A DNA stretch of 24,674 nucleotides. Source: a virus. The stretch covers positions 1-24,674 of the IMG/VR virus record IMGVR_UViG_3300003267_000424; one strand, written 5' to 3'. A model generated the notes under the pieces. The model saw nothing but the letters and a program-made list of their open reading frames with translations, ran no database searches and had not been told where the DNA came from. How positions within the stretch are numbered: position 1 is the first letter of the stretch; each line of letters begins with the position of its first letter. A program made the translations under genes and the position numbers. Positions 17,293 through 18,380 of the stretch are shown here, piece after piece.

Positions 17293-17496
17293 CTACACCA
17301 GCCCCGCTTTCGTGGCCCACCACTCCGAGACCACTAGCGTGCCCTCTTGACTCTCCTGGTACACCTCGCTGTCGTCATCGACGCAGCTCCGAGGCACCCA
17401 GCGTTCCTTGCCCTCGATCACGCACAGCAAAGCGCTCGCGGTCTGTTTGATCGCACGAACGTGTTCGAACGAAACCTTGTTCGCGAAGTCGGTCAT
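17293..17496 (-). CDS. 67-residue conserved-type phage protein
   Basis: ATG 17496 overlaps the methyltransferase stop (ATGA) and has a very strong AGGAGG site. The sequence VRAIKQTASALLCVIEGKER, then WVPRSCVDDDSEVYQ and TLVVSEWWATKAGLV has the look of a small phage protein seen widely in early regions, a compact beta-barrel with a SEWWA ending. Its function is not known. The tight coupling to the methyltransferase could be functional or simply operon packing. Confidence 0.8.
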   Translation of the reverse strand: MTDFANKVSFEHVRAIKQTASALLCVIEGKERWVPRSCVDDDSEVYQESQEGTLVVSEWWATKAGLV

Positions 17497-18380
17497 GACC
17501 CCTCCTGGGCGAGCGCCTGCACCACGCACCCGATCACATAGGCGCACTGGGGAACTACGGCGTTACCGAGTGCCTTGAGCCGATCTCGCCGTCGCGGGAT
17601 CTTCGGGGCCGTCCTGGGCGGTTCCCACGGATATTGCGTTTCGCCGCGACCCGCGGGCCAATGTCCGTCCAAGCCTCTGGGAATCCCATGAGCGATTCGA
17701 CCCATGCTGGATTGAGAGAGCCGCCGACTGTGGTCGCGAGCCCGTCTCCGCTGGTTGGAGACGTGTTCGCCCGGTTGTTGTTTCCGCTGACCGTCGGGGT
17801 CGGCCAGCGCATCCGCACCGTCTGTTCCAAGGAGACCTGCTTCCCGCGAGCTAAAGCCTCTGGACTCCGATGTCTGCCGCCGTTGCCGCAACTGGCCTCT
17901 GGCGTGGGCCACGACAAAAACCCGTTCTCGTCGATGCGGCGCACCGACGTCGGAAGCTCGCAAGCAATCCCACCACGCGTCATACCCGAGCGTGGCCAAG
18001 TCTCCGAGAACGGTGTCGAGCCCTCGAACAGTGAGAGCTGCGACGTTTTCCACAACGACGAAACGGGGTCGTAGTTCGCGAACGATTCTGGCGTACTCTC
18101 TCCAAAGACCCGAGCGCTCACCCGTGATGCCAGCCTGCTTGCCAGCGTTGCTAATGTCTTGGCAGGGGAAGCCTCCGCAGATGAGATCGACCGGCTCGAG
18201 TTGCTTGGCTCCGATGGAGCAAACATCTTCGTATCGAGCGGCAGCTGGCCAGTGCTTTGCAAGCACGGCGCGACAGAATTCCTCACGCTCTACCTGCCAC
18301 TTCACAGGGCCCAGACCGGCCCATTCCAAGCCAAGTTCCAGACCGCCGATCCCAGAAAACAACGAGCCGATGGTGATCAT
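17493..18380 (-). CDS. DNA cytosine-C5 methyltransferase
   Basis: The 295-residue enzyme transfers methyl from S-adenosylmethionine to cytosine C5. Motif I is SLFSGIGGLELGLE (6-19), motif IV GGFPCQDIS with catalytic Cys73, motif VI VVVENV (108-113), motif VIII APHRRERVF (147-155), and motif X LGNAVVP (271-277). The target-recognition part between motifs VIII and IX is short and contains a Gln/Arg-rich stretch. In a phage it probably protects DNA from host restriction, and no cognate nuclease gene is near. The ATG overlaps the membrane-protein stop (ATGA). A second open frame runs through most of the gene (see 17555-18286). Confidence 0.95.
   Translation of the reverse strand: MITIGSLFSGIGGLELGLEWAGLGPVKWQVEREEFCRAVLAKHWPAAARYEDVCSIGAKQLEPVDLICGGFPCQDISNAGKQAGITGERSGLWREYARIVRELRPRFVVVENVAALTVRGLDTVLGDLATLGYDAWWDCLRASDVGAPHRRERVFVVAHARGQLRQRRQTSESRGFSSREAGLLGTDGADALADPDGQRKQQPGEHVSNQRRRARDHSRRLSQSSMGRIAHGIPRGLDGHWPAGRGETQYPWEPPRTAPKIPRRRDRLKALGNAVVPQCAYVIGCVVQALAQEGS
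17555..18286 (-). CDS. overlapping frame inside the methyltransferase gene resembling Dcm-associated phage proteins
   Basis: On the same strand but in another phase, 243 codons stay open from GTG 18286, with AGGT 5 bases upstream. The product has pieces that do not look random: EASPAKT (38-44), SSLWKTSQLSLF (76-87), FSETWPRSGMTRGG (93-106), two WPTP motifs (126, 161) and LNPAWVESLMGFPEAWTD (191-208). As I know it, this order marks a phage protein family usually encoded beside cytosine methyltransferases. Here it lies wholly within the enzyme gene. Translation is not shown. The alternative is that these motifs are simply the shifted reading of conserved Dcm DNA and that some database members arose the same way. 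Confidence 0.4.
   Translation of the reverse strand: MRNSVAPCLQSTGQLPLDTKMFAPSEPSNSSRSISSAEASPAKTLATLASRLASRVSARVFGESTPESFANYDPVSSLWKTSQLSLFEGSTPFSETWPRSGMTRGGIACELPTSVRRIDENGFLSWPTPEASCGNGGRHRSPEALARGKQVSLEQTVRMRWPTPTVSGNNNRANTSPTSGDGLATTVGGSLNPAWVESLMGFPEAWTDIGPRVAAKRNIRGNRPGRPRRSRDGEIGSRHSVTP

Follow-up and report, generated by a model that had tools for sequence, protein, structure and literature searches.

In the phage studied here and in hundreds of related phages, one stretch of DNA appears to encode both halves of a DNA-methylating enzyme. We propose, with a probability of roughly 0.8, that frame A specifies the catalytic subunit and frame B, nested within it, the recognition subunit, and that the two chains together make one cytosine-5 methyltransferase. 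The window, i.e. the whole stretch that was analysed (24,674 nucleotides of IMG/VR record IMGVR_UViG_3300003267_000424), is a viral contig: it carries genes for a terminase, a head protease, a DnaB-like helicase, a Holliday-junction resolvase and a RecT-like protein.

Results

Two frames of one gene carry different motifs of a methyltransferase

The two frames and their parts are located in the window as follows.

17493–18380, minus strand: frame A, cytosine-5 DNA methyltransferase of 295 aa starting at ATG, with motifs I–VIII and X; proposed catalytic subunit
17555–18286, minus strand: frame B, open for 243 codons (243 aa) from a GTG in the +1 frame of A; proposed nested recognition subunit
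18224–18226, minus strand: candidate ATG start of B, at residue 52 of the enzyme and close to the ATG that relatives commonly have; no ribosome-binding site in the window
17663–18100, minus strand: conserved and selected part of B (about B residues 62–208), with the near-invariant columns of alignment A1; the fourfold sites of A residues 97–266 are constrained
18026–18088, minus strand: N-terminal module of B, ESFANYDPVSSLWKTSQLSLF, conserved and overprinted on the ENVAAL motif of the enzyme (18033–18050)
17975–18010, minus strand: B motif FSETWPRSGMTR; W97, P98, R99, S100 and G101 are each at least 90% conserved
17810–17911, minus strand: variable module 1 of B (WPTPEASCGNGGRHRSPEALARGKQVSLEQTVRM), a predicted target-recognition segment
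17720–17809, minus strand: variable module 2 of B (WPTPTVSGNNNRANTSPTSGDGLATTVGG), 61–69% identical to segments of other genes and clades
17663–17716, minus strand: motif IX of B, LNPAWVESLMGFPEAWTD; the identical DNA reads GRIAHGIPRGLDG in frame A
17547–17582, minus strand: motif X of frame A, RLKALGNAVVPQ

Frame A matches PF00145 (1.2e-42), TIGR00675 and phrog_363 (2.3e-79), and the FPCQD, ENV, GAPHRRER and GNAVVPQ blocks of the PF00145 catalytic fold are all found in it. The recognition domain and motif IX of that family are not in the frame A chain; motif IX lies in frame B. Frame B matches phrog_1008 (2.4e-27), and Pfam and NCBIfam searches with it returned no family.

The first-pass annotation, made from the letters alone, had described the second open frame, its motifs and the double reading at 17663–17716. 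All of this is present: the frame spans enzyme residues 32–275, and SLWKTSQLSLF, FSETWPRSGMTR, two WPTP and LNPAWVESLMGFPEAWTD were each found. The frame is indeed open from the GTG, but its functional part starts only near enzyme residue 65–97 (B residue ~62), and the silent sites upstream are almost unselected in the clade of the window. The conserved part of B ends with LNPxWVEWLMGFPxGWTD, which resembles motif IX of cytosine-5 methyltransferases (LTPRECARVMGYP in M.HhaI). As the conserved part of B ends just after this motif, B would supply the small recognition domain that is absent from A. The spacer that leads from the nested motif IX to motif X in the enzyme (window 17547–17660, HWPAGRGETQYPWEPPRTA) resembles that of a Paenibacillus-phage clade (KWPAGLGQEQYDWEPARI), unlike that of most of the closest overall relatives of the window.

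Taken by itself, the length of the second frame in the window gene is only mildly unusual and counts for little as evidence: a +1 frame at least as long arises in 2.8% of synonymous-codon shuffles (p=0.03), and the gene has 5 stops in that frame against 5.2 expected. Matching at its fourfold sites is 0.62 in the overlap and 0.30 in the flanks.

Frame B is nested within the enzyme gene across phages

A tblastn search with frame B gave matches in 306 phage records, and a scan of a genome collection with B gave only 8 loci. At all 89 loci from the first pass of this survey (89/89), the match is to the +1 frame of a dcm gene, and amino-acid identity is about as high in B as in the enzyme frame. 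The proposal in the first-pass annotation of a companion family encoded beside such enzymes, and later separate from them, is not supported: these 89 relatives are all nested, no free-standing B was found among the relatives, and B is a distinct gene only as a split subunit that begins within the enzyme gene and still overlaps it. Three candidates for a free-standing companion gene (L173, L001 and L175) proved to be nested or to be an extra fragment beside a dcm gene; in L001 and L173, the nested frame was annotated, as a hypothetical protein, and the enzyme was not. At least two records thus list B where the enzyme would be expected, and both frames are listed for Paenibacillus phage Bloom. 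An E. coli prophage copy (L193:2001-2762) is marked as a pseudogene and has an internal stop; its frame B stops at nearly the same place.

Motif IX is in B and motif X (GNAVVPQ) in A at 109 of 191 loci. A few phages have split forms, in which A stops early and B holds both IX and X, and a few have fused forms, in which both motifs are in A. In one split form, that of Arthrobacter phage KBurrousTX (L009:2420-4039), B has many LLPTP modules, which suggests a multispecific enzyme. In the fused enzyme of Gordonia phage Lton, the catalytic frame itself includes LLPTP... and LNAAFAEWMMGLPDGHVT; the B profile can be aligned with the TRD-IX part of this enzyme (E 3.9e-7).

A second set of relatives was picked through the enzyme frame alone and is thus free of bias toward B. 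Its 75 distinct genes have a mean of 4.5 stops in the +1 frame against 7.1 expected; the longest +1 frame exceeds 95% of synonymous shuffles in 59/75 genes, and the +2 frame does so in 5/75. Three further clades, nested or mostly nested, preserve the +1 frame in 48/50, 30/31 and 52/56 genes. By contrast, the fused sister clade, with IX and X in one frame, preserves it in only 5/28, and its second frame is unselected.

Both frames are under selection

In the +1 geometry, the third codon position of A coincides with the second codon position of B, and silent changes in A therefore nearly always alter B. We compared third bases in 127 non-redundant nested genes, at fourfold sites with the same amino acid in both genes of a pair; matching by chance is about 28% there. 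Third bases match at 61% of such dcm sites within the overlap and at 32% outside it, against 28% expected, so that silent substitution is reduced in the overlap only; the overlap exceeds the flanks in 126/127 genes. Along A, in these non-redundant genes, matching is 30–31% over residues 1–96, 56% over 97–160, 46% over 161–220, 94% over 221–240 (motif IX), 80% over 241–266 and 37% after 267; a per-residue table built on a redundant set also places the constraint at residues 97–266. Stops in frame B tell a similar story: none is seen over A97–160 against 249 expected and 19 over A65–96 against 71 expected, and A1–31 shows no depletion.

The reverse comparison, in which the B protein was held fixed and its synonymous codons were shuffled, gave no stops in frame A over the recognition region against 353 expected, in genes preselected to reach motif X and hence biased toward zero. 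In a set chosen by B alone, A is open past the last matched residue of B in all but about 2 of 80 loci. Distant phage clades in which both frames are selected have enzymes about 45–60% identical.

The synonymous-site comparison across relatives that the first-pass annotation had called for thus finds selection on both frames. That annotation had also named unselected stops in relatives as evidence against dual coding; they occur only in the fused clade, which would no longer need the second frame. The silent-site constraint of the motif IX region differs in the same way: it is slight in the fused clade (0.39 vs. 0.29), against 0.82 in Leptospira-type and 0.95 in Salmonella-type nested genes. 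Judged from these sequence comparisons, which are decisive where the window gene by itself is not, the second frame is almost certainly a real gene. As B is conserved as a protein and both frames are selected, it is very probable that two proteins are made from one gene here, one of the two outcomes envisaged in the first-pass annotation.

The division between the frames probably follows the division between enzyme domains

The AF2 model of A is confident over residues 1–172 and about 271–295 (a C-terminal helix), and residues 173–270 mostly have pLDDT < 50. The model matches the large domain of M.HhaI over about 165 residues at 1.5–1.9 angstrom. Because A is modelled as ordered only as the large domain, the division between A and B would be the division between the two domains of the enzyme. 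The AF2 model of B alone is poor (pLDDT 59) and gave no structural match, and its fold was dropped as evidence for a recognition domain; the B profile likewise found no meaningful match among the sequences of solved methyltransferase structures.

Between the N-terminal module and motif IX, B mostly has one to four segments that start with WPTP or a variant of it. Segments of different clades share up to 89% identity, while the rest of B shares 15–37%; the core comparison is crude, and three loci that belong to two sets give trivial 100% pairs. On sequence grounds, such sharing is the behaviour expected of exchangeable target-recognition segments. Extra motif-IX-like fragments (LNPAWVECLMGFP and INPAWIECMMGFP) occur inside or after dcm on Paenibacillus plasmids (L174:2412-2558 and L175:1734-2198), as if modules had been duplicated.

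An unlikely alternative is that A alone is a complete minimal methyltransferase and that B has another job, e.g. inhibiting a host restriction enzyme or acting as its partner. The intactness of A through motif X would suit such a division of labour, as would the lack of a Pfam family or structural match for B. However, B has a motif-IX-like block and modules that are seen in the enzyme's own frame in the fused forms, and the model of A has no ordered small domain; both argue for a recognition subunit of the same enzyme.

B probably has its own translation start

Ahead of its constrained part, and with no stop in between, the B frame has an ATG in 117/125 genes, against 66.7 expected, and an ATG with a ribosome-binding site in 69/125, against 18.3 expected. 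In the Salmonella-phage clade, the ATG of B stands 4 bases after the start of A in 53/56 genes, and the silent-site constraint already begins with the first few codons. This arrangement (GTGAATGAG or ATGAATGAG) is seen in L192 and in the clade L388–L467; in L192, B ends past the enzyme stop, so that the two frames are almost coextensive. The start signals of B are thus evident in the relatives and weak in the window: none of the possible starts there (GTG 18286, TTG 18263, ATG 18226 and GTG 18121) has a good ribosome-binding site, and all are weakly supported. The first-pass annotation had suggested a GTG with an AGGT site as a possible start; the GTG exists, but its ribosome-binding site is weak.

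A programmed +1 frameshift from A, which would fuse motifs I–VIII to the recognition domain and IX with no internal initiation, is slightly less likely still than a separate job for B. The order of the motifs in the DNA is compatible with such a fusion, and in the window clade strong selection on B begins only at about A97, as a frameshift predicts, since nothing upstream in B would be needed. The strong enrichment of B-frame starts with ribosome-binding sites and the position and constraint of the start in the Salmonella-phage clade favour internal initiation instead; moreover, B stops are already depleted upstream of A97, and the fusion would lack motif X, yet motif X is kept in frame A.

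That B is a translational shadow without a product, left by GC-rich codons and the conservation of enzyme residues, is very improbable: the frame length and stop count of the window gene by itself would allow it, but silent-site constraint is confined to the overlap, stops are absent even in AT-rich relatives and against codon shuffles, start signals are enriched, the fused clade has lost the second frame, and the codon-preserving shuffles and silent-site tests speak against a shadow of base composition.

Discussion

Our analysis suggests a two-chain enzyme with the following division of labour. Frame A would yield the large catalytic domain with motifs I–VIII and X, and the stretch from VIII to X would be a poorly ordered linker. 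Frame B, started internally and read in +1, would yield SLWKTSQ...WPRSGMTR as a module for association at the N-terminus, at least one exchangeable WPTP module for recognition, and motif IX. We infer that B is translated in the window phage, that A and B bind each other and that B sets the specificity. The probable use of the enzyme is methylation of the phage's own DNA, with protection from host restriction as the most likely purpose.

It also seems reasonably likely that the DNA between VIII and X encodes a disordered linker of the catalytic subunit and, at the same time, an exchangeable specificity domain of its partner; that the frames overlap nearly end to end in some clades; and that few long same-strand overlaps between genes of tailed phages are as widespread as this one, which one-frame annotation would have concealed.

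The C-terminal half of B (WPTP modules and LNPxWVEWLMGFP) is most likely a displaced methyltransferase domain and not a new protein, because it is similar to the part of single-chain enzymes that holds their recognition region and motif IX. The origin by overprinting envisaged in the first-pass annotation may thus apply to one part of B only: the N-terminal module, which lies atop enzyme motifs IV–VIII. In the history that we propose, the recognition region and motif IX of an ordinary enzyme would have been displaced into +1, with motifs I–VIII and X kept in A, and the N-terminal module of B would have been overprinted on motifs IV–VIII. Displacement and overprinting would be the simplest history, and the fused forms could be ancestral or derived.

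Enzymes of this kind are already known. Bacillus phages of the SPbeta and phi3T type have multispecific cytosine-5 methyltransferases with several recognition modules. They have several modules as B does, but on a single chain read in one frame, unlike A and B. M.EcoHK31I (YGGCCR), reported by Lee et al. in 1995, is a two-polypeptide cytosine-5 methyltransferase. One region encodes both of its chains, the small one in an alternative frame. The large chain of this enzyme has motifs I–VIII and X, and motif IX belongs to the small one (PMC3404938). A and B of the window divide the motifs in the same way, and the likeness is one of motif division. In M.EcoHK31I, the recognition domain has been assigned to the large chain, whereas here variable recognition-like modules are on the small chain; and M.EcoHK31I is a restriction-modification partner, whereas the enzyme of the window is a phage gene.

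In M.AquI (CYCGRG), also a two-polypeptide cytosine-5 enzyme, the catalytic chain has motifs I–VIII and the second chain has part of the recognition region and IX. M.AquI resembles the split forms of Mycobacterium and Arthrobacter phages (L002, L008 and L009). Motif X is on its small chain, whereas in the window it is on the large chain (frame A) and the small frame is nested; a small chain with motif X is found only in split relatives, e.g. L008, L009 and L178. The profile phrog_1008 (329 positions, labelled DNA methyltransferase), which B matches, appears to include motif X as the split forms do, and A residues 246–281 match its positions 283–311, weakly; the B of the window, unlike phrog_1008, ends before motif X. 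The present case differs from the known ones in that the nested chain has the recognition modules, in its very wide spread among phages and in the near end-to-end overlap seen in one clade. Searches of the open literature gave no earlier description of this overlap in phages, although one may exist elsewhere.

Annotation programs usually discard long genes that overlap on the same strand in bacteria and phages, and for few such pairs has a role been suggested for each frame. In the present case, the evidence for selection on both frames is strong in distant phage clades, and there is a proposed reason for it, namely that the frames encode two domains of one enzyme. With a domain displaced to another frame and a new N-terminal module overprinted, the pair offers a readily testable case of overlapping-gene origin. 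If our reading is true, current annotation covers only part of a common phage methyltransferase, a recoded version of the annotated gene may yield an inactive enzyme, and phage specificity modules are swapped by recombination while being read in two frames.
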